Shown piece after piece: positions 4,772-21,789 of a stretch of 64,000 nucleotides of DNA. Made by a program: the position numbers and the translations under genes. The DNA is from Akkermansia sp. (GTDB lineage Bacteria; Verrucomicrobiota; Verrucomicrobiia; Verrucomicrobiales; Akkermansiaceae), in the NCBI GenBank assembly GCA_017471985.1, contig JAFURE010000119.1, forward strand, positions 1 through 64,000. The letters are read 5' to 3'. Every line of letters begins with the position of its first letter. Positions within the stretch are counted from its first letter, which is position 1. Below the pieces are notes generated by a model, which was given only the letters and a program-made list of their open reading frames with translations, was not told where the DNA came from and made no database searches.

Positions 4772-6331
4772 ATGAGCAAGTACGTAAAAGGTGACATGAC
4801 TCCTGTTGTGCCGCGCCGTTTTCGTCCTGTGTTCTTCATGCTCGTGAGCTGCTTTGCGCTCTGGGGACTGCTGAACAATATGACGGATAACCTGGTGCCG
4901 GCGTTTAAGAATATCTTTACGATTCCCCAGGAGCAGGCTGCTCTGGTACAGGTTGCCTTCTACGGGGCATACGCAGTGCTGGCTATCTTTGCCTCCATCC
5001 TGATTGAGGAGTTCTCATACAAGAAGGGCGTGCTCATCGGTCTGGGTGTGTATATCGCCGGTGCGTTGGCGTATATACCTGCATGTATTCACCAGAGTTT
5101 TGAAATTTATTTCGTAGCCATCTTTGTGGTCGCTGCCGGTTGCTCCGTACTGGAAACGACGTGTAACCCCTACGTCATTTCCCTGGGGCCCGAGAAAACA
5201 GCTGTCCGCCGACTGAACTTTGCTCAGGCTTTCAACCCTGTGGGTTCCATCTGCGGTATTCTGCTGGCACAGCAGCTGATTCTCAGTAACCTCAATCCTG
5301 CTACTGCCGACGAGCGTGCCGCCATGCCGGCCGAACAGTTGGCTGAGATTGTGCACAACGAGCTCTTCTGGGTATGTGCTCCGTATGTGGGCCTTTGTGC
5401 TATTGCTTTCTTAATCTGGCTGTTCTTCCTGCGTACCAAGGATGAGCAGGGCGAGGAAAGTGCTGAGGAACAGGTCGGGAAAAAAGACAGCGCCAAGGGC
5501 GGCATTCGTGTGCTGGTTGCTGCGCTGTTTGCCGTGCTTCCCCTCACGGTGCTCTATTTCCTGTTCCCCGACATGGATAAGGTGCAGTGGGTGCTTTGTG
5601 GTACGCTGGGACCGATTGTTTACCTGTTCCTGGTGGGAGATTACCGCGCCATGCTGTTCTCGCTGCTCAGCCAACCCCGCTACTGGTGTGGTGTGATTGC
5701 CCAGTTCTTCTACGTAGGTGTGCAGATTGCCGCCTGGACCTACCTGAATGTGTACTGCTGCAAGGAGCTGGGGGTCACTCCCGCCACGGCTGCTACGTAC
5801 TACCTCATTTCCATCGTGCTCTTCATTGCCTGCCGCTGGGTGGCTACTTACTACATGAAGAAGTTCAACCCCGCCGGTATGATGAGCCTGTTTGCCGTGG
5901 CTGCTATCGCTGCCTGCGCCGGTGTGATTTACCTGCCGTCGGACATTCTGTTCAGCATCGGCGGGCTTGGATTCTCTGCCAATGTGCTGAGCCTGATTGC
6001 TATGTCCGGTTGCATGAGCCTGATGTTCCCGACCATTTACGGTATTGCACTCGGTGGTCTGAACCAGCGCGATGTGAAGCTGGGCGCTGCCGGTCTGATT
6101 ATGGCTATTCTGGGTGGTGCTCTCATCACTCCCTGGATGGCCGGTATCATTGGCGATGCTGACTCCTGCTGGCTGTTCCTGACTGCCGGTATGGACAACA
6201 CCTGGGATACGAACCTGGGCACCAGCTCTGCTGCTGTGCGTGCTTCGTTCATTGTTCCTGCCATCTGCTTTGCGGTTGTGTTGCTCTACAGCCTCATTTT
6301 CCGCAAGCCCACCACATCTTCCGACAAATAA
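4772..6331 (+). CDS. fucP: L-fucose:H+ symporter FucP (MFS)
   Basis: This 519-residue polytopic protein follows Escherichia coli FucP closely through the first half (LWGLLNNMTDNLVPAFKN, then ETTCNPYVISLGPE with conserved N, P and E, then LNFAQAFNPVG). It is about 80 residues longer than the E. coli protein (438), mostly through an extra segment near residues 235-300 that includes a charged loop (EEQVGKKDSAKG) and more hydrophobic sequence. It would import L-fucose with a proton across the inner membrane. It starts a same-strand cluster with fucI (27-base gap) and fucK, which makes the substrate assignment strong. The start codon lies 6 bases after a -10 element. Shorter starts such as the Met at 4796 are possible but less well placed. 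Confidence 0.93.
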   Translation: MSKYVKGDMTPVVPRRFRPVFFMLVSCFALWGLLNNMTDNLVPAFKNIFTIPQEQAALVQVAFYGAYAVLAIFASILIEEFSYKKGVLIGLGVYIAGALAYIPACIHQSFEIYFVAIFVVAAGCSVLETTCNPYVISLGPEKTAVRRLNFAQAFNPVGSICGILLAQQLILSNLNPATADERAAMPAEQLAEIVHNELFWVCAPYVGLCAIAFLIWLFFLRTKDEQGEESAEEQVGKKDSAKGGIRVLVAALFAVLPLTVLYFLFPDMDKVQWVLCGTLGPIVYLFLVGDYRAMLFSLLSQPRYWCGVIAQFFYVGVQIAAWTYLNVYCCKELGVTPATAATYYLISIVLFIACRWVATYYMKKFNPAGMMSLFAVAAIAACAGVIYLPSDILFSIGGLGFSANVLSLIAMSGCMSLMFPTIYGIALGGLNQRDVKLGAAGLIMAILGGALITPWMAGIIGDADSCWLFLTAGMDNTWDTNLGTSSAAVRASFIVPAICFAVVLLYSLIFRKPTTSSDK

Positions 6332-6358
6332 ACATTTAACCCCAAAAAACAAACGTAT

Positions 6359-8140
6359 ATGAAATACGATACATTACCGACCATCGGCATTCGCCCCACG
6401 ATTGACGGTCGCCGTCTGGGTGTTCGTGAGTCCCTGGAGGACCAGACCATGAACATGGCCAAGGCTGCTGCAGCCCTCATCGAGGCCAATGTGACCCACG
6501 CTAACGGCCAGCCCGTGAAGTGCATCATTGCCGACACCACTATCGGTGGCCCCGCTGAGGCAGCCGCCTGCAACCAGAAGTTCGCTGAGAACAACGTAGG
6601 CTGCTCCCTCATCGTGACTCCCTGCTGGTGCTATATCACTGAGACTTTCGAGACCGATGCCACTACGCCCAAGGCTATCTGGGGCTTCAACGGTACCGAG
6701 CGCCCCGGTGCTGTGTACCTAGCCGCTGCTCTGGCCGGTTATGCTCAGAAGGGTGTACCTGCATTCTCCATCTACGGTCACGACGTGCAGGATGCCGACG
6801 ATACCTCCATTCCCGAGGACGTGGCTGAGAAGATTCTGCGCTTTGCCCGTGCCGGTCTGACTGTGGCTACCCTGCGTGGCAAGGGCTACCTCTCCATTGG
6901 TGGCTGCTCCATGGGTATTGCCGGTTCTATACTCGACCACTCCTTCTGGGAGGCCTACCTCGGCATGCGCGTGCAGCCGGTCGATATGACCGAGGTTCGC
7001 CGCCGCATGGAGCTGGGCATCTACGACAAGGCTGAGTTCGACCTCGCCATGGAGTGGGCCAAGAAGTATGTGAAGATCGGTCCGGATCGCAACCGCCCCG
7101 ACCTTGTACTTTCCCCTGAGGAGAAGGAGCGCACCCTGCGCGAGAGTATCCTGATGACCATCATCTTCCGCGACATGATGCACGGCAACCCCTACCTCAA
7201 GACCATCGATCGCGAGGAGGAAGGCCTGGGCTTCAACGCTATCTGCGGTGGTTTCCAGGGTCAGCGTCACTGGACGGACTTCTATCCGAACGGCGATATG
7301 GCTGAGTCCCTGCTCAACAGCACCTTCGACTGGAACGGCCCCCGCGAGGCTATTCCCTTCGCCACTGAGAACGACGCCATGAACGGCGTGTGCATGCTCC
7401 TGCTGCACCAGCTGACCGGTCGTGCCGCCTGCTTCTCCGATATCCGCACCTACTGGAGCCCCGCTGCTGTTAAGCGCGTGACCGGCTACACCATGGAAGG
7501 TCTGGCCAAGGACGGCATCATGCACCTCATCAATTCCGGTTCCACCGCTCTGGACGGCAACATGCAGTCCACCGCTGCCGATGGCACCCCCATCATGAAG
7601 AAGACCGGTGAGACCACTCAGGCCGACATCGAGGCCATGATGGCTGCCTCCGAGTGGTGCCCGGCTAACCGCGAGTACTTCCGCGGCGGCGGCTACAGCC
7701 TGCACTTCGTTTCCAAGGGCAATGTGCCCGTGACCATGATTCGCATGAACCTGGTGAAGGGGCAGGGCCCCGTGCTCACAATCGTTGAAGGTTGGACCTG
7801 CGACCTGCCTCAGGACGTGAACGACAAGCTCGACCAGCGCACTGACCCGGGTTGGCCCACCACCTGGTTCGCCCCGCGCCTGACCGGTAAGGGCGGTTTC
7901 AAGGATGTGTACACCGTCATGGCCAACATGGGTGCTAACCACGGCGCCTGGACCTATGGCCATATCGGCGCCGATATCATCACTCTGGCTTCCATGCTCC
8001 GCATCCCGGTATACGCTCACAACGTACCCGAGGACAAGGTGTATCGCCCCGCCGCCTGGGATCTGTTCGGCACAGCCGACCCCGAGGGTGCAGACTTCCG
8101 CGCCTGCGCCAACTTCGGTCCCATCTACGGCAAGTACTAA
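6359..8140 (+). CDS. fucI: L-fucose isomerase
   Basis: At 593 residues it matches the length of E. coli FucI (591) and agrees with it along its whole length from [19 protein letters not shown] onward. It converts L-fucose to L-fuculose in the cytoplasm using Mn2+. The metal-binding residues Glu337 (in ATENDAMNG) and Asp361 (in [10 protein letters not shown]) fall at exactly the positions known for the E. coli enzyme, and the His of NMGANHGAW is also kept. The gene lies 27 bases after fucP and is probably co-transcribed with it. A strong intrinsic terminator follows immediately (8153-8190), so less transcript should reach fucK. Confidence 0.97.
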
Positions 8141-8152
8141 GATGAATTTACC

Positions 8153-8190
8153 GCAAGCTGTCGGAAGGAATTCCGGCAGCTTGCTTTTTT
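8153..8190 (+). terminator. intrinsic terminator between fucI and fucK
   Basis: A 12-bp stem (GCAAGCTGTCGG with CCGGCAGCTTGC, one G-U pair) with loop AAGGAATT is followed by six T. It ends only 11 bases before the fucK ATG. Confidence 0.85.
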
Positions 8191-8201
8191 GTTGAAGCAT
8201 T

Positions 8202-9623
8202 ATGTCTTACGTACTTTGTCTGGATTGCGGCGCGACCAATGTGCGCGCCATCCTTGTAGATGACAAGGGAAATCTGATTTCCAAGGCCAGTCAGCCCAAT
8301 TCCACCGATGCCGGCAGTGAGAACGCCGACTTTCATGTGTGGAACGCCGACCGAATTCTTAATCAACTGGCTGAGTGCGCCCGCAAAATTCTGCCTGAGG
8401 TAGATGCTACGCAGGTAAAGGGCGTAACCATAACGACCTTTGGCGTGGATGGCGCTCTTGTGAACGAGGCCGGCGAGTTGCTCTACCCCGTGATTTCCTG
8501 GAAGTGCCCGCGCACTGCCGAGGTCATGAAGAATATCGGCAAATACCTGCCGCAGAGCAAGCTCAATGAGATTTCGGGTGTGGGTGAGTTCGCCTTCAAC
8601 ACGATATACAAGCTCATCTGGCTGAAGGAGAACCGCCCCGAACTGCTGGAGCAGGCTCATGCCTGGCTGTTTATTTCCAATATCCTGGCTTATCGTCTGA
8701 CGGGCGTGATGGCTACAGACCGTACCATGGCCGGCACCTCGCAGATGACTGACCTGAGCACAGGTGACTGGAGCGATGAAATTCTGGGTACTCTGGGTAT
8801 CAGTAAGAGCCTGTTCCCGCCCATGGTGAATGCCGGCGATGTTATCGGCACGCTCACACCTGCCGCCTGTGAATTGCTCGGTCTGCCCTCAGCTGTGCCG
8901 GTTGTCTCTACCGGGCATGATACGCAGTTCGCTCTTTTCGGTAGCGGTGTGAAGGAAAATCAGCCCTTCCTGTCCAGCGGTACCTGGGAAATCCTGATGC
9001 TGCGCACGGCAAAGGCCACTCTCTCGGCCGAGGATTATGCAGCCGGTGCCACGGTTGAGTATGACAGCCGTGCCGGGCTCCTCAATCCCGGTCTGCAGTG
9101 GATTGCCAGTGGCATTATCGAGTGGGTAAAGGCCACCTGCTACAATGGCGAGAGTTTCGATACCATGGATGCCGAGGCCGAGAAGATTGCCCCCGGTTGC
9201 GATGGCGTGAAGCTCGTGCCTGATTTCCTGCCCAGCGATGCCGTGCCTGGCAGCATTCAGGGGCTTGTTCTGGGCCGTACTCGTGCGCACATTTACCGCG
9301 CCGCCATGGAGGCCCTGACCCTGCGCCTGAAGAGCCGTCTGGAGAAGCTGGAGAAGGTGGGCGGATTTAAGTCTGCTGACCTGCTGTTGGTTGGCGGCGG
9401 TGCCCGCAACAAGATATGGACTCAGATGCGTGCCGACATCCTCGGCTTGCCGATTCGCATTTCCAATGTATCGGAGAGTACGGTGCTGGGGGCCGCTATG
9501 TATGCCTTTGCCGGTGCCGGTGTATATGCCGATGCCGAATCCTGTCGGGATGCTTTCGGTATAAGCTATACCACCATCAATCCCGGTGAGCAGCAGACCG
9601 CCTATGCGGCGCTGTATTGCTGA
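8202..9623 (+). CDS. fucK: L-fuculokinase FucK (FGGY family)
   Basis: This 473-residue protein matches E. coli FucK (472) from LCLDCGATNVRAI through TTFGVDGALV, YPVISWKCPRTAEVM, WLFISNILAYRLTG, STGHDTQFALFGSG and the C-terminal VGGGARN motif of FGGY kinases. It phosphorylates L-fuculose to L-fuculose-1-phosphate with ATP in the cytoplasm. The rhamnulokinase branch is a neighbour in the family, but the FucK-specific agreement and the fucP-fucI context settle the substrate. It starts 61 bases after fucI across a terminator, so its expression depends on read-through or a weak internal promoter. No fuculose-1-phosphate aldolase (fucA) is present in the window. Confidence 0.95.
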   Translation: MSYVLCLDCGATNVRAILVDDKGNLISKASQPNSTDAGSENADFHVWNADRILNQLAECARKILPEVDATQVKGVTITTFGVDGALVNEAGELLYPVISWKCPRTAEVMKNIGKYLPQSKLNEISGVGEFAFNTIYKLIWLKENRPELLEQAHAWLFISNILAYRLTGVMATDRTMAGTSQMTDLSTGDWSDEILGTLGISKSLFPPMVNAGDVIGTLTPAACELLGLPSAVPVVSTGHDTQFALFGSGVKENQPFLSSGTWEILMLRTAKATLSAEDYAAGATVEYDSRAGLLNPGLQWIASGIIEWVKATCYNGESFDTMDAEAEKIAPGCDGVKLVPDFLPSDAVPGSIQGLVLGRTRAHIYRAAMEALTLRLKSRLEKLEKVGGFKSADLLLVGGGARNKIWTQMRADILGLPIRISNVSESTVLGAAMYAFAGAGVYADAESCRDAFGISYTTINPGEQQTAYAALYC

Positions 9624-9645
9624 AACATATTGCATTTATAATAAC

Positions 9646-9686
9646 AAGAAGGCCCCCCATCTTCTTTCGGTGGGAGGCCTTCTTTC
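9646..9686. terminator. bidirectional terminator between fucK and the PP2C gene
   Basis: A long stem (AAGAAGGCC pairing with GGCCTTCTT, extended by further pairs with one mismatch) lies between two convergent genes. It has T-rich sequence on both sides, so it can end fucK and the six-gene minus-strand cluster. Confidence 0.8.
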
Positions 9687-9711
9687 TATATTCTAAAGGT
9701 CAGCTTACCAT

Positions 9712-11331
9712 TCAGTACGCAAACCTGTAGCAGTAGATAACTTGCTGCGAGTAACCGCAGTTGTTGCCATTGGATCCATAATTAATAGATATGGTGGCCG
9801 AACAGACATTACAGGTGTCGTCTATCAGAACATAGCCCTGAACCCCTTCACATGAATAATAGTACTGAGTGGAGGTGCCGTTCCCTCTGCCGCTGCTGCT
9901 AGTGATATTGATAGCTACATCTTTCGGCAGCTGAATCGTGGCTGGCTCAGGTGTGGGCTCAGGAGTAGGCTCAGGAGTGGGCTCAGGTGTGGGCTCAGGT
10001 GTGGGCTCAGGAGTGGGCTCAGGAGTGGGCTCAGGAGTGGGCTCAGGTGTGGGCTCAGGAGTGGGCTCAGGTGTGGGCTCAGGTGTGGGCTCAGGAGTGG
10101 GCTCAGGTGTGGGCTCAGGTGTGGGCTCAGGTGTGGGCTCAGGAGTGGGCTCAGGTGTGGGCTCAGGTGTGGGCTCAGGAGTGGGCTCAGAAGTGGGCTC
10201 AGAAGTGGGCTCAGAAGTGGGCTCAGAAGCGGGGTTGCCTTCGGTTATAATGTTGGGGGAGGGAGGCGTTACTGTGGTGCCCGATAAAGGGGTGGGAGTT
10301 TGTTGCGTATCCGTTTTATCGTTTCCGGTAAGACTCACAATTGCCGTTGCTGCAATGGCGCAAAGTCCTACGGCTCCAGCAATCAGGAGGGGCAGTGGCA
10401 ATGAGCATGGGAGTTTGTTCTCGGTGTTACACCCATCTTGGGTGACTGTGGCGGGGAGGGCGGTCTCTGTTAATTGGGGCGCATCGAGAATAGGGGCAAC
10501 CTCTTTATCCTGAGCTGTTGGTATGGCCCAGATGGCGGAAACATTGTCGGAGCGTCCGTCTGCTGCTTTAATGGATTCTTCTGCCATGTTTGCAAGGGTT
10601 TTGCCGATGTCAGTTGTATCCCACGCCGGGAGAGCCATGAGAGGTTTGGGCAGCTGGTTCCAGAGCCCATCACAGCAAAGAAGGAATGAGGAACCTGGGG
10701 TATAGATACCGCTTTCGACATGAGGCTTGAGTCTGCTTTGTGAGCCGAGAGCCTGTGTCAGCGTGTTTTGATCCGGGTGTCCTTCTGCGTCTTCAGGCTT
10801 TACCTGACCACTCAGAATCAGCAGTCGCAGCAGAGAGTCATCCGTCGAAAGCTGTTTCCACGCATTATTGTCGGAGATATAGGCTCTGCAATCACCTACA
10901 TTTACCATGGTATATCTGTAATTGTGCAGATAGAGTAGCACGATGGCAGCCTTGCCGCTCAATGCTGCATTGCCACCGAACCTCGCTATGACAGCTTCGT
11001 GAGCTTGTAAAATGGCCTCCTTGAGCAGTTCATCGCATTTGTCGGCATCCAGGCCGTCCTTAAGGAACTCATTCCAGTATCGCTCCAGACTTTCCACGGC
11101 CGTGCGAGAGGCCTCGGCACCGCCTATATGGCCACCGGCACCGTCTGCCACGACAAGGAGGGTGGCTTTCTCTGAATACCAGGATTTCAGATAATCCTGT
11201 TGAGAGTCACGGTCGCCCTGCTTGGAGATTTCAGCCAGCTTGAAAAAGGGGCTTTCTTTGAGTCTGAGATCAGAATCGGCGGGGTGGGTTGACTGATCTG
11301 ACGGGCTATTGTCTGTTGTGGGGGATGACAT
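9712..11331 (-). CDS. membrane-anchored PP2C-type Ser/Thr phosphatase with Glu-Pro-Thr-Pro linker
   Basis: This 539-residue protein has a cytoplasmic PP2C/PPM phosphatase domain at residues ~30-270. The metal-binding motifs are all present: [15 protein letters not shown] (61-68), GDCRAY (146-151), CDGLWN (220-225) and GRSDNV (259-264). One membrane helix follows at ~311-335, then a linker of about 20 EPTP units preceded by three or four EPTS units (~369-461). A ~78-residue C-terminal domain with five cysteines would lie outside the membrane. PP2C enzymes remove phosphate from Ser/Thr; here the likely partners are proteins bound by the FHA domains encoded just upstream. No kinase is visible in the cluster. 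The stiff linker could span the periplasm or peptidoglycan. It is the last gene of the six-gene cluster, 292 bases after the preceding FHA gene. Confidence 0.92.
9943..10236 (-). repeat. tandem 12-bp repeat encoding the EPTP linker
   Basis: About 24 in-frame 12-base units encode EPTP or EPTS. The units differ mainly at one synonymous base of the second proline codon (CCT or CCA) in an irregular order, while the encoded peptide is kept. This suggests an old expansion held by selection on the protein, although length change by slippage remains possible. Confidence 0.95.
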
Positions 11332-11623
11332 AATATCTATAATGATAATTGAAAGGTTGTCTTGATTGGGGGAATTGATGGATTTGATTTCTTGTATGAG
11401 AATGTCGCAAGTGCTGTCGGTCAGGGGGCTGTTTTAAATTCTTCTTGTATGTTGGTACCGCGTACGAAAGAGGTGAACCTCTATCTCGTATTCATGCGCT
11501 GCTGGTCAACAACAGCGTTCTCCTGCTTATCTCTGCCGCCTTGCCTCTGGGCAGATGCAGCAGAGGTGGAGAAGCTCCCGAACGCTGTGATGACGGAGGG
11601 CATGCCCGGATAATGAGTTACAG
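11332..11623. other. intergenic stretch inside the FHA/PP2C cluster
   Basis: These 292 bases lie between the FHA gene stop at 11624 and the PP2C start at 11331. I see no convincing gene on either strand, no terminator with a T-run and no clear -35/-10 pair. TATAG-containing AT-rich sequence just before the PP2C ATG could hold a weak promoter. Confidence 0.5.
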
Positions 11624-12280
11624 TCAGCTTTCGTAATCCCAATTGAAGTAGTCGCCGCAGAAGGGCATGAAGCGCAGCTTGGTATGGGACGATAGGCGAA
11701 TAATTTCACCTGCTTCCAACGGGACTGTGCTGCCATCAACAAGGGTTCCATCGCTGAGGCGGGTTTCCTGAGTGCATTGATCGAACTTTTTAATGTAAAA
11801 AATCCGTTTATCGCGATCATAGTGAACGACACACTGAACCGAAGAAACTCCGGGATCCTCACTCAGACATATTTTGTTGCTTGCGTCCCTGCCTATGTGG
11901 TTATAACCGTACGAAATCGGGAAAGTCCGACCTTGCATCGGGCCCTCAACAGCAACCAACCAACCCTGGGGCCAATCTTTCTGCGGAACTGAGGTCGAAT
12001 TATCAATCTTTCTATCGAGGCCGATTACCACCGTAGGTTGCCGCCTCTTCATAACATGGGACATCATGTTGTCGCCTTGTTGCTCAGAACTGGGTTTCAT
12101 TTCGGTTTTGGGGGCGTAGCGATTAATTTCACTTTGCGTCAGGAGTCGTGTTCGCGGAATATTCTGCTCGGTATTTGTCTTTCTATCCTCATCGATGATT
12201 TGAGTCTTGCCGATGTGTACACCATGTATGATAACAGTGTCGCGTTTGGCAGAAATCTGTTTATTTTGAGATTTTTTCAT
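11624..12280 (-). CDS. soluble FHA-domain protein (218 aa)
   Basis: The first ~100 residues are polar, probably disordered and rich in Lys, Thr and Gln. The C-terminal ~105 residues form an FHA domain with the signature Gly-Arg at 130-131 (in YNHIGRDASN) and a Ser-Ser pair at 146-147 (in GVSSVQC), the residues that contact phosphothreonine in this family. No membrane segment or signal peptide is seen, so it should be cytoplasmic. It lies between the metzincin-FHA gene (142 bases upstream) and the PP2C gene. It probably reads the phosphorylation state of a partner, perhaps itself, since its Thr-rich N-terminus could be a phosphorylation target. Function beyond phosphopeptide binding is unknown. 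Confidence 0.88.
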   Translation of the reverse strand: MKKSQNKQISAKRDTVIIHGVHIGKTQIIDEDRKTNTEQNIPRTRLLTQSEINRYAPKTEMKPSSEQQGDNMMSHVMKRRQPTVVIGLDRKIDNSTSVPQKDWPQGWLVAVEGPMQGRTFPISYGYNHIGRDASNKICLSEDPGVSSVQCVVHYDRDKRIFYIKKFDQCTQETRLSDGTLVDGSTVPLEAGEIIRLSSHTKLRFMPFCGDYFNWDYES

Positions 12281-12422
12281 ATCTGTGACTGTTTGCGTTT
12301 ATCTGCGGGCGATAACTCCCTTTGTTCTCTTTGACGAATGAAAAGTTTATTTGTTCAAGGAAATTAAAGAGGTATTGAGTAAAAGTCTGGCGAGTGAAGA
12401 AGTTTGTTTTCAGTTGTGGGAA

Positions 12423-15400
12423 TTATTCTGTTCTACTATTTGTGGGTGTTTGTGTGTTCGACTCGTCATTCAGCAACAGTGGGGTGCTGCGTGCAACCAG
12501 GCGCGGGTCGATTTCTTGAACAATGTAGATTTCCGGACCATCCTTGTCTGTGTATTCCTCTGCAAAACTGACATTGTACACTCTGGGCTCATCGGGATTG
12601 GTATCCTCAATCTGCATTAATAAGCGTTTATCGAGTAACATCATGGTGACATTGCCATCTGCTGTCAGCAGTTTGCCATGAACTACTATTTTCTTGTATG
12701 GCTCCTCCTCAATATCGACAGACGTTACCTCAAAGCTGTATTTCTTGGTATCCAGCAAACTGATTTTGATAACATCTCCGCACGCGGGTTCCTGCATGGG
12801 TTGTGTCCAGTTGAGCGCACCTTCGGGCAAGGGAACCTGGCATATTCTCAACGTGCCCTCAGAATCCGGCTTGTCGTATTTGATTTCATCGGTATGTTGG
12901 AATGCGCCGAGATCAATATATTTTATCTTAGGGGAAATGGCATCACTCTCTGAATCAATAACAATGAGTGTGGAGTTTTTTTCGTAGACTTGATGGGGCG
13001 AGGTGGCAGCCATCTCTTCGGGCTGAGATGTTTGTTCGGTACTGTCGCGGCCTGCTAAATCTTTTGCTTCCCGTTCTTTTCTGTTTTCATAGAGAACTAC
13101 GATGGCTAATATGGCAAAAATGAGGGAGGTTATAAAAAATATGAGACGAAGTAAGCTGGCAAACTTAAGGAGCACGACTTTAAACATAGAGGGAGCTACT
13201 GTAGTGATTTTAAAATGACATTTGCCGAGAATAAGTTCCGAACCATCCGTTACTTTCACGCTTGCATTGGCAACAGTGAGTTTGATTTTGTCGATGATGG
13301 TTCCTGTTTCTGTACCCCTGTCTGCTACAAGAAGTACGAGATTGTTGTCTACGTGCCTTATTTTAAATATACAATGATTTTTTTCTACTGTTTTGTCATG
13401 GATGACGAGGGCGTTTGACGAATCTCTACCTATGGTGAAGTTGTCTTGTTCATCGAAGTCCTTCATCGCGATGGTATAGGTTCTCTTTTTACCATCGGAA
13501 AGTTTACCGGAGAGCACAAACCTGCGGTCTTTTTTTGTAATAGGGGAGCGAAGTCGTTTAGGGGCACCTATCTGGATATTGCCAAACTGCATTTTCTTGT
13601 CCTTCACTTTGCCGACAAGTGGGTCAGAATTTACTGAAAATCCGGCCGATATAATCTGAATGGCCGAAATAATAGCAGCTGTGATACAACCTATAGCAAA
13701 CGTCAGTATGACAGAATCTTTCAATACCCACTCAGTCTGATTGTCAGTCGATAACGACTGCTTTTCACGGATAAGAATCCCATCAGAATCCGAGACTTCA
13801 TCGGGCTCTTCCGCTCTTTCAGATGTGTGGACTTCGTCAGGGGGCGCAATACTGTTGTCACTTTGCTCTGTCAGTGTGACAAGGAGGTTGAATTGATTAA
13901 TGGAGGGAGTTATGTTATCAATCGCAATGTAAAGAGTTTCGCTTGTGTTTACATTTGTCTTTACGCGTTTTATGAAGTAATCACTTCTATCATCTGCCAC
14001 CGGTGAAATGGGCAATTGTCGTAATGTACTGAGAGTATCCCCTTGGAATATCCCCATTACCGGTTCAAACCCGGGAGTTGTGTTCGTTTTGCGAATGCCA
14101 AGCTCGAGAGTTCCGCTGACAGGAGGGGTCAGTTTGTACCATACGGTGTTACCGCAACCATTCTTTAACTCGGGTTCTCCTTCTTCGGTCTCGCGTTTTG
14201 CGCCGGTCGTTGTACCGATGATACATGCGAGCCTGACCTTACCTTGCTCGTCAGCAGCAGGCAGAGCAGGGGATATGTATTTGCTCTCTAGGCATTTTTC
14301 CTCAATAATTTTATCGATTACCTGATCGAGTTTTTTCCAGTATTCGCGCAGTTTTTTGTTCGTTTCGGTCCCATGTTTTTCTTGCGCGTATTCCAGTAAT
14401 TTCGAATGGGCTATTGCTCGCAGCAGTCGTGATTTTTTATCTTTCCAACATGTTAATGGCGGCAGTGGCAGAGCTGCTGAAAAATCATCGTTAATGGCTA
14501 TTTCGTCGCCGCTGTAATGATAAAGTGCTACGACCGATGCATGACGCAATACAACGGCAGTATTGTTTTCCTTATCCGTATTCCCGAGTTGAAGCTCTAT
14601 TTTGTTGAAATCGAATGGAATTGGCCCCGAGAGTACCTTGTGAATGGTTGCATCCTTATAATAGGCATCGCTTAATTCTTTTTTTCGGGTATCGTACTCC
14701 GATACATAGCCCATCAGGCTGGTGTGAGCCTTGCCGTCATCTGTATAACAAAGGGCAGCTGCAGCATCTGTCTCAGATTGAGGGCCGGGGTTGAAGTAAA
14801 GCATGTCTGCATGGCCGGCGCCCAGTAAGTGACAAACTTCATGACTGAAGGTTGCTGAGGCCGTGTTAAGCGTTTCGATATTGAATACCGCATGTCTGGA
14901 AGGCTCCTCTATATCTGCTGTTAATGCGCCGATATTATAGCAGCCGGCCACACCCAGAATGCATGGTTTTTGGGGGATAAGTTTGTTCCATACAAACATA
15001 ATGGCGAGGTCGGCACCGCTATTTTCAATTGCTGCTTCCAGACTCGGGAGCGGAGCTTTCACCACCTCCGTGGGCTGGGGCGTTTTCTTTTGGTAATGAG
15101 TGAGCGTTCCTCCCGGTGCATTTTCTGCGCGGATTGCCTCTAAATCCTTTGCGAGTTCGTAGCCACTGTCACCGGCCTGAGTTGTATAGTTGAGTTCGAA
15201 TATACCGCAGCAGCGAAAGTTGATGAAATCACCGAGGCCTGATTCCTGGAGAATCTGGTTGATTTCTTCCATTGCAGCTTCGGCCTTGCCATTTAACGTG
15301 GCGTCCCCTTTGTTTCTTTCCCTGTCCCGTATGTATTCTCTGGCCGATGTGTCGAAAACAACCAGTACATCGATATTGGCTCTTCCGGAGCTCGTCTGTT

Positions 15401-15482
15401 CCTCTTCTGCACACAGGCTGAGGCTACAGCCCAGTATCAGGAGCAGTAGTAATATCAATCGACTGTGTGCACTGTTGAACAT
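12423..15482 (-). CDS. secreted metzincin protease fused through the membrane to an FHA domain (1019 aa)
   Basis: A signal peptide (residues 1-24, ending LSLCA) leads into a metzincin-type zinc protease. HEVCHLLGAGH at 214-224 gives the HExxHxxGxxH signature, and SLMGY at 255-259 fits the Met-turn. Residues ~405-535 resemble a PPC-like beta-sandwich (GNTVWYKLTPPVSGTLELGI). One membrane helix at ~589-612 leads to a cytoplasmic FHA domain at ~655-760 (TIGRDSSN at 683-690, HDKTVEKNHC). A second helix at ~775-798 returns the ~220-residue C-terminus outside; I do not recognise that part. The layout couples an extracytoplasmic protease to intracellular phosphothreonine reading, which I do not know from any described family. 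It lies 9 bases after the TolQ-like gene. Confidence 0.88.
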   Translation of the reverse strand: MFNSAHSRLILLLLLILGCSLSLCAEEEQTSSGRANIDVLVVFDTSAREYIRDRERNKGDATLNGKAEAAMEEINQILQESGLGDFINFRCCGIFELNYTTQAGDSGYELAKDLEAIRAENAPGGTLTHYQKKTPQPTEVVKAPLPSLEAAIENSGADLAIMFVWNKLIPQKPCILGVAGCYNIGALTADIEEPSRHAVFNIETLNTASATFSHEVCHLLGAGHADMLYFNPGPQSETDAAAALCYTDDGKAHTSLMGYVSEYDTRKKELSDAYYKDATIHKVLSGPIPFDFNKIELQLGNTDKENNTAVVLRHASVVALYHYSGDEIAINDDFSAALPLPPLTCWKDKKSRLLRAIAHSKLLEYAQEKHGTETNKKLREYWKKLDQVIDKIIEEKCLESKYISPALPAADEQGKVRLACIIGTTTGAKRETEEGEPELKNGCGNTVWYKLTPPVSGTLELGIRKTNTTPGFEPVMGIFQGDTLSTLRQLPISPVADDRSDYFIKRVKTNVNTSETLYIAIDNITPSINQFNLLVTLTEQSDNSIAPPDEVHTSERAEEPDEVSDSDGILIREKQSLSTDNQTEWVLKDSVILTFAIGCITAAIISAIQIISAGFSVNSDPLVGKVKDKKMQFGNIQIGAPKRLRSPITKKDRRFVLSGKLSDGKKRTYTIAMKDFDEQDNFTIGRDSSNALVIHDKTVEKNHCIFKIRHVDNNLVLLVADRGTETGTIIDKIKLTVANASVKVTDGSELILGKCHFKITTVAPSMFKVVLLKFASLLRLIFFITSLIFAILAIVVLYENRKEREAKDLAGRDSTEQTSQPEEMAATSPHQVYEKNSTLIVIDSESDAISPKIKYIDLGAFQHTDEIKYDKPDSEGTLRICQVPLPEGALNWTQPMQEPACGDVIKISLLDTKKYSFEVTSVDIEEEPYKKIVVHGKLLTADGNVTMMLLDKRLLMQIEDTNPDEPRVYNVSFAEEYTDKDGPEIYIVQEIDPRLVARSTPLLLNDESNTQTPTNSRTE

Positions 15483-15491
15483 CTGAAAGAA

Positions 15492-16250
15492 TTAATTTTG
15501 TCGTTCGTACAGTTTGTTGACAAACTTATTTAAACAGTATTTGTGACAGTAGTTGAGGTGGGTCTCCTCCCTGCATTGAACATACTGCATAAGGTACATG
15601 ATGATACTGGTCAGAACAAGCGCTAACAGGGTTGTCCAGAATGCAACGCTCATTCTGTCGGTGATGATTGTGAGCAAGGCGTCGCTTTCCATGTCGACCT
15701 TAAGCGCATGGAGAATTCCCCATACCGTTCCCATAAAGCCCAAGGTCGGGAGCATCCATACAATATATCGCAGAATGGAGTATGCTCTGTCGATATCATT
15801 TGAGCGTAACTGAATCTGTGAGTTAAGCAGGTCGTTGCAAATGGTTGTTGATAAGTTAGTTTGGAAATTCTGAACTAACGGGCGCAAAATTTCCGAGAGC
15901 ATACCACCTTGCCCGGAGTTTTCGATATCTGCCATCAGAGTCTCCATTTGTTCTGCTGCGAGAAGGGTATTTGCGTTTCCTCGCAGGAACTCCAATTCTA
16001 TTTCCTGTTCCTGTGCACGTACGAAAAGAAAACGAATCAGAATTTCGGACAATCCCCAGAAGAAAAGAATCCACATGAGGTACTGGAAGGCAAAGAGCTT
16101 TACGCCATCAGACCCCGGCTCCCTATCAACCAGACATCGTGCCAGATTTTCTTCGAGTGGTATCGTATTGCACAACAAAATAAACAGTATTGCACATACT
16201 ACGGAAATCGCAAACCCTACAAGTCTATATTTGTTAAGTTTATCAGCCAT
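15492..16250 (-). CDS. MotA/TolQ/ExbB-family proton-channel protein
   Basis: This 252-residue protein has hydrophobic segments at ~10-28, 51-76, 162-182 and 200-222. The third contains PTLGFMGTVWGI (168-179), the hallmark of the MotA/TolQ/ExbB family. A cytoplasmic helical region lies at ~85-155. These proteins form a pentameric channel around a dimeric TolR/ExbD/MotB partner and convert proton or sodium flow into mechanical work. The partner is probably the product of 16690-17358. It is 48 bases after a small FHA gene and 9 bases before the metzincin-FHA gene, so the channel is likely to drive or be gated by those proteins. No ton, tol or flagellar genes are nearby. Confidence 0.87.
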   Translation of the reverse strand: MADKLNKYRLVGFAISVVCAILFILLCNTIPLEENLARCLVDREPGSDGVKLFAFQYLMWILFFWGLSEILIRFLFVRAQEQEIELEFLRGNANTLLAAEQMETLMADIENSGQGGMLSEILRPLVQNFQTNLSTTICNDLLNSQIQLRSNDIDRAYSILRYIVWMLPTLGFMGTVWGILHALKVDMESDALLTIITDRMSVAFWTTLLALVLTSIIMYLMQYVQCREETHLNYCHKYCLNKFVNKLYERQN

Positions 16251-16298
16251 TGTTGATATTGAGTAATTTCAGATGATTAGATGACCTCCATGCATTGT

Positions 16299-16664
16299 TC
16301 AGAATCGGGGATCAACGATTTTGCGGGTTTCAGGGTGAAAGAACGGTGGGTTCTTTCTATTGTATTGTTTAACGATTTCTTCTATGGTTACTTCAGCTTT
16401 GCCGAATCGCACCTTAGTTTGTTTGGTGACTCTGCTTTCCTGCGCAGGTACCCAATTCTCTGAATCGTCCTGATACTTAGTGCCGTTTGTGCTACCGATA
16501 TCGGTCAGAATATATTCGCCTGATTTTTCGGTGCGGGAAAGACTTGCATGACGGCGGCTGACTGTTTCGTTGCCTTGCCCGGTAATTTGGATGTCGGGCT
16601 GAAATGAATTTTTCGCAGCAAGGTCAGGGCGACCTATAATGAGGGTATCCTTTCGTTCATTCAT
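16299..16664 (-). CDS. small single-domain FHA protein (121 aa)
   Basis: Almost the whole protein is one FHA domain with all signature residues: IIGRPD (Gly-Arg at 11-12), SRRHA at 36-40 and DIGSTNGT ending at residue 62. There is no membrane segment. A ~25-residue basic tail follows. It should bind phosphothreonine peptides in the cytoplasm. It sits between the TolR-like and TolQ-like genes (25- and 48-base gaps), an unusual position that suggests it works on the motor pair itself, for example as a phosphorylation-dependent gate. That role is inferred; the fold is clear. Confidence 0.9.
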   Translation of the reverse strand: MNERKDTLIIGRPDLAAKNSFQPDIQITGQGNETVSRRHASLSRTEKSGEYILTDIGSTNGTKYQDDSENWVPAQESRVTKQTKVRFGKAEVTIEEIVKQYNRKNPPFFHPETRKIVDPRF

Positions 16665-16689
16665 CGTTTGAATTAGCGGGGGAAGGGGA

Positions 16690-17358
16690 TTATTGCAGTT
16701 TAGCGGTGGTAGTGAGGGGGTGTTCTGTTAACTGTACATTACCACTGGAATCGATTTGAATGTCAGATATTGGTATGAGCTTATCGCTTTGGCAAAAATC
16801 ATCACTACTGTATATGTGGTCAATTGTTTGGTGGCCGTTGGGTGTAATCACCCTCAGTGTGACTTTGAATTGTTTGTACTTTAAGGAGATATCTTTCCCG
16901 TTACTCCTTTTTTTATGGCATTTTACTATTTTTTCACCGCCATGGTCCTGATGGATGAGGTAGGAAATATTATAGGTACCTGTAGGTGCCAATGTTACCA
17001 TCCACACATCTGCTCCTCCCTGTACAGAATCTGATATATATGAGGCATTGGCGTACTCCTTGTGATTTTTCTTAGCGGGTGTGTATAGCAGCTGTTTTCC
17101 ATCAACAGGCATTTGAACATACAGGTCGAGGTCACCAATGGCAATGGAGTGCCATTTTGAATCGTTTTCGAAGTTCGCCTCGAGGGATAAAACAAGGGTA
17201 AGACTGTTCATCACTTTAACGTCAGAGGGAACTTCTACCATTTTGGGCTCTTTCTCCATGATAACAAAGCACAGAATCATAAAAACACCCATTGCTGAGC
17301 AGAATAAGTCTAGCGCAGATATGGAGAAAACTGATATTTCACGATTCTTCCTTTTCAT
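16690..17358 (-). CDS. TolR/ExbD/MotB-like single-pass membrane protein (222 aa)
   Basis: The N-terminus has a short basic cytoplasmic tail and one membrane helix at ~15-34 (ALDLFCSAMGVFMILCFVI). Asp17 stands at its cytoplasmic end, as the ion-binding Asp does in TolR, ExbD and MotB. The ~185-residue periplasmic part is beta-rich and does not look like an OmpA/MotB peptidoglycan-binding domain; I do not recognise it. With the TolQ-like protein it would form the stator of a small ion-driven motor. It is the first gene of the six-gene cluster, with a -10-like TATAAT about 47 bases upstream. The lack of an OmpA domain separates it from typical ZorB and MotB. Assignment rests on the helix motif and the context. 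Confidence 0.7.
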   Translation of the reverse strand: MKRKNREISVFSISALDLFCSAMGVFMILCFVIMEKEPKMVEVPSDVKVMNSLTLVLSLEANFENDSKWHSIAIGDLDLYVQMPVDGKQLLYTPAKKNHKEYANASYISDSVQGGADVWMVTLAPTGTYNISYLIHQDHGGEKIVKCHKKRSNGKDISLKYKQFKVTLRVITPNGHQTIDHIYSSDDFCQSDKLIPISDIQIDSSGNVQLTEHPLTTTAKLQ

Positions 17359-17404
17359 GCTAACGTGCCGTAGTATTTATTTTCTCTCGTGATGAACAGC
17401 TAAT

Positions 17405-17410
17405 ATTATA
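17405..17410 (-). promoter_or_regulatory. candidate -10 element of the FHA/TolQR/PP2C cluster
   Basis: A perfect TATAAT reads on the minus strand 46 bases before the first ATG of the cluster. No good -35 hexamer is seen at 16-18 bases, so the promoter may be weak or activator-dependent. Confidence 0.35.
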
Positions 17411-17575
17411 CTGATAATAGAAGGTAAGTACAGTCTAATTTTTCCAGGAGTGTGGCGGTTTAACTGTTTTTCGTGCCTGTTTAAAGTCGAGATGACGGTT
17501 TCCTACACGCAGAACCCGATTCTCACCTTAACAAAGTAGACGTTGGATTGAAGAAATTGTTGTTTGTAATCTGTA

Positions 17576-19768
17576 TTATTGGAGAATTTGTTCTGCAAGT
17601 GAGAGGATGTCGCCCCTTGGTGTGGTGAGCATGGGGATATCGGAGCAGCGGAACTTTAACTGAAAGTTTTCCATCTCCGGATTGCGTATAATCTCGAGCT
17701 CGACGGCTTCTCCATTGTTATGGGTGATTTCCCTCTCAATTTTTTTATCCTGCGCACCCCCTGTCTTCAGTTCATTGAGTCGGGCATTGAAGTACATCTG
17801 CCAGCGGGGCAGGTAGTAGTGCTCCATCATCTCTGCGAACTGGCGGTGAGAGTAGTCGTTGAGCACGCTGATATCCGGGCGCCAGGTGGTGATAAGTTGG
17901 AGCAGGGCCCGTTCCATGGCTTCTTTATCTTGCGGTGTTGTTCCTCGTTTGCGCGCTCCATCAACAAAGCGGCCGAGCAGGAAATGCTCTGAAGTGGCAA
18001 GTACGGCTGCTGTATCTCTGATGTGAGTCAGGAACAACTGGCTTTCTTTGCGGAATGCTGCTTCATCCTTACGTTCAAAGGCGTTTTTGCACCGAGCCAG
18101 AGTAGCACGGGCTCTATCTGCAAGCACCTGGCGGCAAAGGTCTGCCAAGTCGTGGCGATAGGTGATTCGCGAGGTGAGCTGTTCTCCCAGTTGCTTGCCG
18201 GCTTCGAGGTACAGTTCAGCCGCAGTGTGAACTGACAGGGGGGAATAGTACATGGTGGGGTCGGCCCAGGTCGTAGCCTTTCGAGCTTTTAAGTCAGGGC
18301 GGGCACAGATGATGTTTTCAAGGCTTCCTTCACGCTTCTTGTCAGTGTTGTAAATGCTGTTTGCCAGCAGGTGCAGCGCCTTGTGTAGTTGTTGATTACT
18401 GACACCGTAACGGCTCTGAGTATAGCGCTGGATGTAACTTGCGCGTTCAATGGCTCCTGCCGTGTTCATACGGGTCCAGAGCAGTTCGTAGTAGAAGGGG
18501 CTGGTTTCCAGACCTTCGGATATCATGCCGATTCCTATGGCCTTGCTTTTATCGCGTGTAAAGTTTTCGAGCAGTTCCATTCCGCCGAACATTCCGTGCT
18601 TGCCGCCGAAATTGGAGAGTTCACACCATACAAAGGGGCGACCTGCATAGTCAAAATTGGTTTCTGCCTTCGGGCTGAGGTTTTTCTGCAGTGCCAGAAT
18701 GACGGTGTGCTGCGGGTCAGTACCGTTCAGCAATTTTCTGTCCGGGTTATGCCCCCAGGCCTGAATCAGCCAGTTTGAACCGGGCGAGGCCTTTTGCATG
18801 GCTCGCTGAACCGCCTGAGCCGCTCTCCCGAGATCGGTATCTCCCTTTCTGCCGCCCTCGTGGAAAAGATCGCCACCGTATGCCTTGGCTGTAGTTCCGT
18901 ATACCGCGTGCAAGTGCTTGTACCACAGTTCGGCTATGCTGTCAAAGCCCGGTGCGGTGGGTTGCAGTACGGCCGGTCTGTGGTATCCGCACCACTTACC
19001 CTGGGGCAGTAGCTTGCCGTTGATTCCGGCCTTTGGGAAGTCATGTGGCAGAAAACCGACATAGCCCTGCAGCACCGGTTCCATACCAAGTGATTTAAGC
19101 CGCTTTACAAGAAAACGCCCTAATTCCGCTTCGCTATCGATGAGCGTTTGGCTGAGCGGTCCACCTTCTCCTTCCAGATTCCCCATGTTCCACCAGGCCG
19201 CATAGCAGGGATTGGGGATGAATGCTGCGATTTTATCCTGCGGATATTCCAGTTCCGTCAGGAAATTCTGCCAGACTTTTTCCAGACCGGAGGTCACCAG
19301 CACATATTTAACCCCGTTAAGCGCCATTATATCCAGCTCGCGTTCCCATCGCTTTTTGTCCCAGGTTACGGTGGTGTAACTGAGGGTGCAGTAGTTGAGC
19401 GCGTAGTTGAACGGCAGTGCTGCCGGAACTGTGATACGGCGTGTAGGCACGATGAAGGATGAGCCTGCGGTACAATCTCCGTTCCATGAGAAATGCACCC
19501 TGGCAATGTGCCGGAGGTAATAGCCATAGGCGCGTATGCACTCGCTCACATCGGGCGCATTGATGTATACATATCGCCCATTCCCCTCTATATACGCTGA
19601 TTGTAGTTGCGGAACTATATTGAAGTGTATACGGCCTGCATATTGAGGTGTGACTCGTGTAACAAGTTTTTGCGCAATCAGTTCAGAATACTCAGCAGCA
19701 GGTGCTATATCTGCTGCGATGGGGAGTATGCATGCCAGAGCCAGAGGGGAATAGGGGGAGTAATTCAT
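17576..19768 (-). CDS. secreted GH89 alpha-N-acetylglucosaminidase
   Basis: A signal peptide (residues 1-24) precedes a GH89 (NAGLU-type) enzyme of 730 residues. Family blocks are clear: NYALNYCTLSYTTVTWD at ~121-137, RWERELDIMALNGVKYVL, NMGNLEGEGGPL at ~195-206, and GYVGFLPHDFP. The two likely catalytic glutamates are Glu304 (GGDLFHEGG) and Glu383 (FVWCELSNFGGKHG). GH89 enzymes remove terminal alpha-linked GlcNAc, which in the gut occurs on gastric-type mucin O-glycans; heparan sulfate is the human substrate. It stands alone on its strand between the phospho-signalling cluster and the pilin genes. No PEP-CTERM tail is seen, so the product is probably periplasmic or released. Confidence 0.93.
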   Translation of the reverse strand: MNYSPYSPLALACILPIAADIAPAAEYSELIAQKLVTRVTPQYAGRIHFNIVPQLQSAYIEGNGRYVYINAPDVSECIRAYGYYLRHIARVHFSWNGDCTAGSSFIVPTRRITVPAALPFNYALNYCTLSYTTVTWDKKRWERELDIMALNGVKYVLVTSGLEKVWQNFLTELEYPQDKIAAFIPNPCYAAWWNMGNLEGEGGPLSQTLIDSEAELGRFLVKRLKSLGMEPVLQGYVGFLPHDFPKAGINGKLLPQGKWCGYHRPAVLQPTAPGFDSIAELWYKHLHAVYGTTAKAYGGDLFHEGGRKGDTDLGRAAQAVQRAMQKASPGSNWLIQAWGHNPDRKLLNGTDPQHTVILALQKNLSPKAETNFDYAGRPFVWCELSNFGGKHGMFGGMELLENFTRDKSKAIGIGMISEGLETSPFYYELLWTRMNTAGAIERASYIQRYTQSRYGVSNQQLHKALHLLANSIYNTDKKREGSLENIICARPDLKARKATTWADPTMYYSPLSVHTAAELYLEAGKQLGEQLTSRITYRHDLADLCRQVLADRARATLARCKNAFERKDEAAFRKESQLFLTHIRDTAAVLATSEHFLLGRFVDGARKRGTTPQDKEAMERALLQLITTWRPDISVLNDYSHRQFAEMMEHYYLPRWQMYFNARLNELKTGGAQDKKIEREITHNNGEAVELEIIRNPEMENFQLKFRCSDIPMLTTPRGDILSLAEQILQ

Positions 19769-19788
19769 GTGATTTTTGTGTACGAAGA

Positions 19789-19820
19789 GCGCCCGTACCT
19801 CGGTTGGGGGATACGGGCGC
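19789..19820 (-). terminator. stem-loop after the pseudopilin gene
   Basis: A 9-bp stem (GCGCCCGTA pairing with TACGGGCGC) around a 14-base loop lies 34 bases after the pseudopilin stop. The following T-run is short (TCTT), so termination may be weak or factor-assisted. Confidence 0.5.
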
Positions 19821-19854
19821 GCAGAAGGTTTGAGTTTCTATGGCAAGCTTGCGA

Positions 19855-20493
19855 TTACCAAGCTCTGATATTGGAAATGTTGTCGGCGTTTTCCGCATCC
19901 TTGGTCAGCCCATCGCCCTTGCCATCCGGGCCGAGCGAGAAGATGTCGAAATCGGGGTTAATGCCCATGCCGGTCTTGTTGTTCTCATCGAGGGCTTCGC
20001 AACCCAGTCGATAGCGATAAGGCTGATTCCACGGGTCAATGATGGCGTAACGCTTGCCTTTCAGTCGCTTGCCGCCGGCGGCCTTGCCCGAAATCTTAAC
20101 CTTAATGCAGGGAATGCCCTCCTCACGCTCCTTTGACTTGGTGTTGTCAATGATGATGAGCTGCTCACAGTAGGGCATGCGTGTCACGCCGGTGGAGTCC
20201 TTATCAGGCTCGCCGTCGCTGTCCTCATCGCAATACAATGCAGAATAGAGAACAGCTGCGCTCACAGCATCGCCCTTGCCATGGGGGAGCACGTCACCGT
20301 TGTCTGCACGGTAGGCATTCATGGCAAGCTCCAGCTGACCGACCTGAGTCGTTGCCACTGTTACGAGCTGCTTGTTATCCAGCCATGCCTTGGCCTGCCA
20401 TCCGCCTGCGGCAAGCATGGCAAGGATGGCAATGGCAACAAGAATCTCAATTAGGGTGAATCCCTTAGCGGAACTGGTAGTCTTAAACTTCAT
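19855..20493 (-). CDS. type II secretion GspG-like pseudopilin
   Basis: This 212-residue protein begins with a short basic leader and the class III prepilin motif KGFTLIEILVAI, in which cleavage follows Gly and Glu5 of the mature protein is kept, then a single hydrophobic helix. The globular part has features of major pseudopilins, including a proline-containing IIDPWNQPYRYR segment like the WGxPY region of GspG, and a DIFSLGPDGKGDG loop that resembles the calcium site. It would be exported, cleaved by a prepilin peptidase (not in the window) and assembled into a short pseudopilus. It begins 9 bases after gspF, so the two are co-transcribed. A type IV pilin role cannot be excluded. Confidence 0.9.
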   Translation of the reverse strand: MKFKTTSSAKGFTLIEILVAIAILAMLAAGGWQAKAWLDNKQLVTVATTQVGQLELAMNAYRADNGDVLPHGKGDAVSAAVLYSALYCDEDSDGEPDKDSTGVTRMPYCEQLIIIDNTKSKEREEGIPCIKVKISGKAAGGKRLKGKRYAIIDPWNQPYRYRLGCEALDENNKTGMGINPDFDIFSLGPDGKGDGLTKDAENADNISNIRAW

Positions 20494-20502
20494 GGCTTTC
20501 GT

Positions 20503-21789
20503 TTATACGCTTTCCATGATTTTCATCATCGGCATGAACATAGCCAGCACGATACCACCGACCACAACGGCGAGGAACACAATCATGAGCGGTTCCAGCA
20601 TGGCGGTAAGAGCGGTCACGCTGTTGTCCACCTCTTCATCGTACACCTCGGCTACCTTCATGAGCATGTCGGGCAGCTGACCGGTTTCTTCACCCACGTC
20701 CACCATGGAAATCATCATGGGCGGGAAGATGTTCGAGGCTGAGCTCATGGGGGTGACGATGGACTCACCTTCACGCACGGAGTCGTGAATCTTGTTCACG
20801 GCGTCAGCCACAACGATGTTACCGGCTGTGTCGCGGGTAATCATGAGAGCCTGCAGAATCGGCACACCGGAGGATACGAGAGTACCGAAAGTACGGGAGA
20901 AGCGGGCCACGGCGTTCACGCGGGTAAGATGACCGAGCTTGGGAATCTTAAGCATGAAGTTGTCCATGGCGCGGGCACCCTTGGGTGTGCGCTTCCAGAA
21001 GGAAAGCCCCACGATGGCAGCCGCAATGATGGCAAGCACGACAACAGCATTGGGAATGAAGGGAACAATGCTGCAGGCCATACAGTTATCGGAGAAGCTG
21101 AACACGAACTCGGAAATAGCGGGCAGCTCCATGTTCTGACCCTCGAACATTTCCTTGAACTTGGGTACGATAACCAGCATGAGGAAGATAAGAATACCCA
21201 CAGCAATCACCATAATGATGAGCGGGTAAACCATGGCAGATGTTACCTTGCCACGCAGCTTGTTGGCTTTTTCCTGATATTCGGCCAGTCGGTTAAGCAC
21301 AACTTCGAGCACACCGCCAATCTCACCGGCCTTCACCATGTTGACGAACAGGCGGTTGAACATCTTGGGGTAGGCTGAGAGGGCTTCGGAGAACGTGGAA
21401 CCGCCTTGTACGGATTCACCAATGGCACCGATGGTGGCACGAAGGTTCGGGTTGGGCTCCTGTTTGTTGAGCACGTTAAGGCTTTGCAGCAAGGGCAGAC
21501 CTGCATCAATCAGCGTAGCAAGCTGACGGGTGAAAATCATGAGCTCCTTCTGCTTAACGGCACCGCCGGCCTTGCCGCCCTTGGCCTCCTTCTTTTTGCC
21601 TTTGGCTCCTTTTTTCTTAGGCTCTTTGGCGGGGCCGGGTTTGGCACCCTTGGCTGCTTCTTCGCATTCACGCAGAAGCAGGCCCTGAGCACGAATCATC
21701 TCGGCGGCAGCAATCTTGCTGTCAGCCGTAATGATGCCGGTCTTTTCCACGCCGTTCTGATCCAGTGCGGTATATTTGAAATTAGGCAT
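20503..21789 (-). CDS. GspF/PilC-type inner-membrane platform protein
   Basis: This 428-residue protein has the usual two repeated GspF domains, each ending in membrane helices: MVYPLIIMVIAVGILIFLML near residue 190, FIPNAVVVLAIIAAAIVGL near 245 and a final MIVFLAVVVGGIVLAMFMP. The ELMIFTRQLATLIDAGLPLL segment is typical of the family. An unusually Lys-rich, Ala-rich insert (~residues 45-75) precedes it. The protein is the membrane platform that transmits ATPase motion to pseudopilin assembly. It lies between the second gspE-type gene and the pseudopilin gene in one minus-strand operon. Confidence 0.95.
   Translation of the reverse strand: MPNFKYTALDQNGVEKTGIITADSKIAAAEMIRAQGLLLRECEEAAKGAKPGPAKEPKKKGAKGKKKEAKGGKAGGAVKQKELMIFTRQLATLIDAGLPLLQSLNVLNKQEPNPNLRATIGAIGESVQGGSTFSEALSAYPKMFNRLFVNMVKAGEIGGVLEVVLNRLAEYQEKANKLRGKVTSAMVYPLIIMVIAVGILIFLMLVIVPKFKEMFEGQNMELPAISEFVFSFSDNCMACSIVPFIPNAVVVLAIIAAAIVGLSFWKRTPKGARAMDNFMLKIPKLGHLTRVNAVARFSRTFGTLVSSGVPILQALMITRDTAGNIVVADAVNKIHDSVREGESIVTPMSSASNIFPPMMISMVDVGEETGQLPDMLMKVAEVYDEEVDNSVTALTAMLEPLMIVFLAVVVGGIVLAMFMPMMKIMESV

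Follow-up and report, generated by a model that had tools for sequence, protein, structure and literature searches.

A membrane-anchored metzincin–FHA protein with a prodomain-like C-terminal domain, encoded beside a putative ion-driven channel pair in Akkermansia

Gene and Domain Organization of the Locus

The locus lies on contig JAFURE010000119.1 of a 2.54 Mb MAG from a gut bacterium assigned to Akkermansia sp., within a stretch of 64,000 nucleotides that was analyzed as a whole and is referred to below as the window. An open reading frame on the minus strand begins with ATG at position 15482, ends at 12423, and encodes a protein of 1019 aa; the opposite (plus) strand of this frame contains many stops. 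In its translation, the gene (12423–15482) comprises a signal peptide, a metzincin domain, a PPC-like sandwich, a TM helix, an FHA domain, a second TM helix, and a prodomain-like domain. This frame had been reported, without its strand, in a preliminary description made from the sequence, and all of the landmarks placed on it there were recovered at the same residues.

The signal peptide (residues 1–25; 15408–15482, minus strand), recognized by hydropathy and sequence, contains LILGC, which resembles a lipobox; the relative encoded in Akkermansia sp. RGIG1721 from goat cecum (genome G161, locus L080) shows no conservation there. Hydropathy and charge place TM helix 1 at about residues 589–612 (13647–13718, minus strand) and TM helix 2 at about residues 776–798 (13089–13157, minus strand). 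The hydrophobic stretches themselves cover residues 1–25, approximately 587–608, and 780–798, in agreement with the signal peptide and two further helices of the preliminary description.

Four genes are arranged head to tail on the minus strand in the order ExbD-like, FHA, MotA/ExbB, and metzincin–FHA, with gaps of 25, 48, and 9 bases. The first encodes an ExbD/MotB-like partner of 222 aa (16690–17358) with one TM helix (SALDLFCSAMGVFMILC, invariant Asp17) and a predicted periplasmic domain; because no Pfam match was obtained for it, its ExbD-like assignment rests on the TM helix, the Asp, and the gene order. It is followed by a small FHA protein of 121 aa with a canonical site (VSRRH, STNGT) (16299–16664; PF00498, E = 1.9e-9) and by a channel subunit of the MotA/TolQ/ExbB family of 252 aa (15492–16250; PF01618, E = 2.8e-13), which is conserved in L080, in Akkermansia sp. 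S3M_St_21 (genome G185, locus L079), and in genome G155. With a channel subunit and a single-TM partner carrying an Asp in its helix both present, the pair is predicted to form an ion-driven unit of the MotA/TolQ/ExbB–ExbD type.

On the other side of the metzincin–FHA gene, after gaps of 142 and 292 bases, lie the genes for an FHA protein of 218 aa, in which the His of the site is replaced by Gln (11624–12280, minus strand; PF00498, E = 1.8e-6), and for a PP2C phosphatase of 539 aa (9712–11331, minus strand; PF13672, E = 9.4e-13). In the latter, the TM helix (residues 315–333) is followed by a long (PTPE)n repeat and then by a short tail predicted to be periplasmic. No kinase gene was found within the operon of the window. 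The preliminary description had missed this context, that is, both the operon of motor, PP2C, and FHA genes and the diderm status of the organism.

The GC content is 0.45–0.49 over positions 12001–20000 of the window, where the operon lies, versus about 0.55 around it, which may mean recent acquisition; in the final 4 kb of the window (60001–64000) it is just 0.366. Upstream of the operon and separated from it by a NAGLU gene, the window carries GspG-, GspF-, and two GspE/PilB-like genes (19855–25257) of a type II secretion system or type IV pilus; in L080, such genes are not adjacent to the operon.

Relatives and Distribution

The relatives L079 and L080, the nearest carriers of the gene, were located through an alignment of the channel subunit, in genome sets with one genome per species, while single-sequence scans of genome and viral contigs with the metzincin–FHA protein confirmed no relative. 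Together with the window's own genome, they bring the metzincin–FHA chain to three of the 76 genomes of the genus. The metzincin–TM–FHA order and the zinc site are kept in both relatives, and the full-length fusion that includes the C-terminal domain (hereafter, C-domain) occurs in the window genome only. Among 388 genomes across the phylum, the only match spanning both the metzincin and FHA parts was the window's own. Matches to the FHA domain or the sandwich alone were numerous in the family and the phylum and were set aside as representing a different architecture; likewise, proteins of approximately 1390 aa in genomes G152, G158, and G171 have a similar metzincin part, but no FHA match.

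The gene set of the operon is common to L079, L080, and a further locus of the genus, L103, and the ExbD-like helix with its Asp occurs in all of these operons. A Ser/Thr kinase gene closes the operon in L079 and L103. In L103, a vWA–TM–FHA protein replaces the metzincin, and L079 encodes both. The channel subunit was detected in four of the 76 genomes, and the vWA–TM–FHA protein in seven, including all four with the channel.

Several related modules were observed besides these operons. The window's own genome carries on contig C74 (about 1–12000; L113) a cluster of vWA–TM–FHA, FHA, PP2C, a further FHA protein, and a Ser/Thr kinase, with neither channel nor metzincin. A second protease–FHA fusion in the genus is encoded at L105 (genome G100, contig C2, 7111–8811, minus strand): a 566-aa protein composed of GYF_2, a PrsW-family membrane protease (E = 6e-14), and FHA (E = 3e-19), whose gene adjoins kinase, PP2C, FHA, and vWA–TM–FHA genes. 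In L080, a TM–FHA gene followed by a gene for a TM helix and a beta-domain (1881–3145) resembles a protease-less counterpart of the metzincin–FHA/C-domain pair; homology of the product of its second gene (2576–3145) to the C-domain, considered as a second prodomain, was not supported.

Metzincin Domain and Beta-Sandwich

The catalytic domain spans about residues 36–275 (14658–15377, minus strand), with a zinc motif HEVCHLLGAGH at residues 214–224 (14811–14843) and a Met-turn SLMGY at residues 255–259 (14706–14720), exactly where the preliminary description had placed an HExxHxxGxxH motif and a Met-turn. Pfam recognized Reprolysin_3 at residues 132–224 with 22.6 bits versus a cut-off of 22.4. 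The overall identity of the window protein to its relatives in L079 and L080 is 28–38%, and His214, Glu215, His218, Gly221, His224, Met257, and Tyr259 are invariant in all three; at this level of divergence, conservation of the zinc site is more than would be expected by chance.

A profile built from the three homologues aligned over 186 columns with a profile of 32 metzincins of Verrucomicrobiota (HHalign probability 99.5, pairwise E = 1.2e-22, score 150), and the best score among 60 shuffles with the zinc motif left intact was 51.8. The same profile retrieved serralysins with the zinc motif and the Met-turn aligned (E = 0.0017). The AlphaFold model of the ectodomain, based on an alignment of three sequences, was poor (mean pLDDT 44), and a Foldseek search with it returned venom metalloproteases and CpaA among the matches. 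Thus, the metzincin fold proposed in the preliminary description, which structure prediction did not settle, was borne out by profile comparison, and by its three-His zinc motif, Met-turn, and profile-level fold the domain is classified as a metzincin.

At about residues 416–539 (13866–14237, minus strand) a beta-sandwich was modeled with pLDDT 54–85. Foldseek matched it to collagen-binding domains of collagenases and pre-peptidase C-terminal domains (3jqw, 1nqd, 5sv5), as expected for the PPC-like sandwich described earlier.

C-terminal Domain

The catalytic homology of the protein begins at approximately residue 33, and this leaves no room for a prodomain at the N-terminus. At the other end of the chain, the roughly 220-residue C-terminal part noted in the preliminary description does contain a real beta-rich domain (about residues 869–1000; 12483–12878, minus strand), although its prodomain- or CpaB-like identity had been missed. 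Its model has a mean pLDDT of 62, with core blocks at 81–90. In a Foldseek search against the PDB, chains G, H, K, L, and M of 6o38 stood out as its strong matches (probability 1.00; E-values between 1.5e-3 and 6.5e-3), and everything else fell at an E-value of 0.24 or above. Entry 6o38 is the complex of CpaA, a secreted metzincin (M72) of Acinetobacter, with its chaperone CpaB; cpaB adjoins cpaA, and CpaB is tethered to the membrane through a TM helix at its N-terminus and occludes the CpaA active site with its C-terminal tail (PMC7542363, PMC4713064). Judging by their length of 117–130 residues, the short chains of 6o38 would be CpaB. The C-domain yielded no match to CpaB in a sequence search, and nothing in a viral structure library matched its model.

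At the profile level, the C-domain and the N-terminal prodomains of 19 metzincins of Verrucomicrobiota aligned over their full lengths (HHalign probability 91.5, pairwise E = 8.8e-7, score 38.5). The top score of 200 shuffles was 16.6, and other domains of the operon scored no higher than 14.3. Single-sequence comparisons gave weaker matches that were mostly co-linear.

In both relatives, the C-domain is encoded by a separate gene directly downstream (13160–13972 in L079; 6331–6990 in L080), which begins with its own N-terminal TM helix, the same helix that is TM helix 2 in the window. A frameshift was rejected as the cause of the split in L079: the downstream reading frame there starts independently and with a TM helix of its own, and L080 is split in the same manner. 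The C-domain is present in all three operons with a metzincin and absent from the three clusters without one. The assignment of the C-domain as a metzincin prodomain or CpaB-like membrane-anchored chaperone is well supported, albeit remote. By analogy with CpaB, it may act on the protease as a chaperone or inhibitor.

FHA Domain and Membrane Topology

The FHA domain occupies residues 655–763 (13194–13520, minus strand); PF00498 matched residues 683–753 (E = 7.8e-8, 33.1 bits versus a cut-off of 20.7), inside the stretch claimed in the preliminary description. PF16697 (Yop-YscD_cpl) matched it as well, below its cut-off. The domain retains Gly685-Arg686 and His703, and its site reads VEKNH instead of VSxxH, and TETGT, so that the phosphate-contacting Ser is replaced by Glu700 and the Asn of the N-G motif by Thr. 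In a comparison of 20 FHA domains from these clusters, Glu in place of this Ser was found only in the copy on the window's metzincin; the orthologous site is fully canonical in L079, and in L080 the GR, Ser, and His are retained. The preliminary description had taken the window copy to be a phosphothreonine reader. Because the canonical Ser and Asn are missing, direct reading of phosphothreonine by this protein is doubtful; the metzincin–FHA family probably had this ability.

By virtue of the signal peptide, the metzincin lies beyond the inner membrane. In L079, L080, and the vWA relative, a basic stretch follows the single TM helix (KKDNK, SSKK, RKRRNKK), which places the FHA domain inside, and the separate C-domain gene of L079 begins with MKNKK before its helix, so that the C-domain would lie outside. 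Since protease and prodomain have to be on one side of the membrane to come together, the two TM helices of the window protein would flank a cytoplasmic FHA loop. An out–in–out topology is therefore supported, and, the organism being diderm, "outside" here means the periplasm. The positive-inside charges of the relatives, the argument from the side of the prodomain, and the phospho-signaling genes of the operon all favor the earlier claim of an extracytoplasmic metzincin and a cytoplasmic FHA domain on one chain.

Discussion

Our analysis points to an unusual architecture made from known parts, in which the anatomy, i.e., the domains, the zinc site, the FHA domain, the TM helices, and the gene order, is well supported by sequence evidence. 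The occurrence of a metzincin, an FHA domain, and a prodomain-like domain on one chain, in the neighborhood of a phosphatase gene and the genes of an ion-channel motor, suggests that periplasmic cutting could be coupled to signals from inside the cell.

We tentatively propose, at somewhat less than even odds, that a membrane-tethered prodomain on the same chain restrains this metzincin, which faces the periplasm, and that FHA joins the enzyme to an envelope complex driven by ions and regulated by phosphorylation. In this model, the protease sits in the inner membrane, and its prodomain, which in other metzincins usually comes first in the chain, would have moved to the C-terminus, beyond TM helix 2. 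The two would come together in the periplasm, with the FHA domain forming a cytoplasmic loop between them; like CpaB with CpaA, the prodomain would fold the protease and hold it in a latent state. Through the FHA loop, the enzyme would dock onto the cytoplasmic components of the operon complex, namely the soluble FHA proteins, the PP2C, and a Ser/Thr kinase encoded elsewhere in the genome, and would thereby be attached to the MotA/ExbB–ExbD-like unit. A phosphorylation-dependent rearrangement or a stroke of the ion unit might then free or position the protease. We infer the latency, the docking through FHA, and any control by phosphorylation or ion flow, and the link between protease and channel is suggested by gene order.

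A different reading, possible but rather unlikely in our estimation, is that the FHA domain of this protein no longer reads phosphothreonine and serves as an assembly module only, like the cytoplasmic domains of SctD/YscD, which have the FHA fold. The metzincin would then be built permanently into an envelope machine driven by ions, and the C-domain would be purely a folding chaperone. The replacement of Ser and Asn by Glu700 and Thr, the sub-threshold match to Yop-YscD_cpl, and the tight gene order with the channel pair all suit such a role, but the fully canonical ortholog in L079, the residues kept in L080, and the presence of PP2C and a canonical FHA protein in the same operon speak against it.

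It is less probable still that the extracytoplasmic part recognizes a substrate or ligand and reports inward via FHA, with proteolysis as the means of sensing. The occurrence of a vWA ligand-binding domain at the same place on the TM–FHA stem (L079, L103, L105, L113), as if sensors had been exchanged, would fit this; however, the complete zinc site and the retained prodomain argue for an active enzyme rather than a receptor. The least supported rival, a Zorya-like defense system in which a ZorAB-type ion-driven unit would send the signal and the metzincin would act as effector, is very improbable. In its favor, ZorA models gave weak hits to the channel subunit (E = 3e-5), the distribution of this subunit is patchy (four of 76 genomes), and GC is lower over the operon; but hits of this kind are typical of any MotA/ExbB protein, a periplasmic protease would be an odd effector against DNA phages, and the other operon proteins gave no match to the ZorB, ZorC, ZorD, or ZorE models of PADLOC, so that of the Zorya composition (ZorA and ZorB with ZorC/ZorD or ZorE) only the generic ZorA matches were found.

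The proposed prodomain-held, FHA-docked metzincin can be compared with several known systems. Like CpaA–CpaB, it combines a metzincin with a TM-anchored periplasmic partner, encoded by a neighboring gene in the relatives, whose fold matches the short chains of 6o38; unlike CpaA, which is secreted by the T2SS, the Akkermansia protease is itself predicted to be membrane-anchored, bears FHA, and in the window has its partner fused into the chain, the partner lacking a sequence match to CpaB. Bacterial M12B-like metzincins (Pfam Reprolysin) likewise pair a catalytic domain with a prodomain-type domain, but theirs is N-terminal, whereas here it is C-terminal behind a TM helix or encoded by a separate gene, and TM–FHA is added. 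The vWA–TM–FHA/PP2C/kinase modules of Akkermansia (L079, L103, L105, L113) share the stem of an extracytoplasmic domain, TM, and FHA, together with soluble FHA, PP2C, and kinase proteins; they differ in that here a metzincin stands instead of or besides vWA, and the channel pair is restricted to just four genomes of the genus. In the PpkA–PppA–Fha system of the T6SS, a kinase, a PP2C, and an FHA protein similarly act on a membrane machine (PMC3953482), but no T6SS core gene was recognized in the operon, and the machine part here would be a MotA/ExbB-type channel. In the open-licence literature on FHA in connection with metalloproteases, ExbB/TolQ/MotA, vWA, PP2C, or PrsW, and on FHA and metalloproteases in Akkermansia, we found no description of the combination seen here.

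The control of metzincins is usually exerted once, via removal of the prodomain. In the Akkermansia protein, the prodomain is apparently membrane-tethered, in cis or in trans, with a signaling-type domain across the membrane. This arrangement would also allow a reversible switch, in which phospho-signaling or ion flow through the ExbB/ExbD-like unit separates or rejoins metzincin and prodomain via the cytoplasmic loop; we consider this unlikely, though it would, if true, represent a new kind of regulated envelope proteolysis as opposed to one-way zymogen cleavage.

In conclusion, the match between the C-domain, CpaB, and metzincin prodomains suggests that CpaB-type chaperones may be detached prodomains. 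If the coupling proposed here is real, proteolysis in the periplasm could be turned on and off by the bacterium from its cytoplasmic side.
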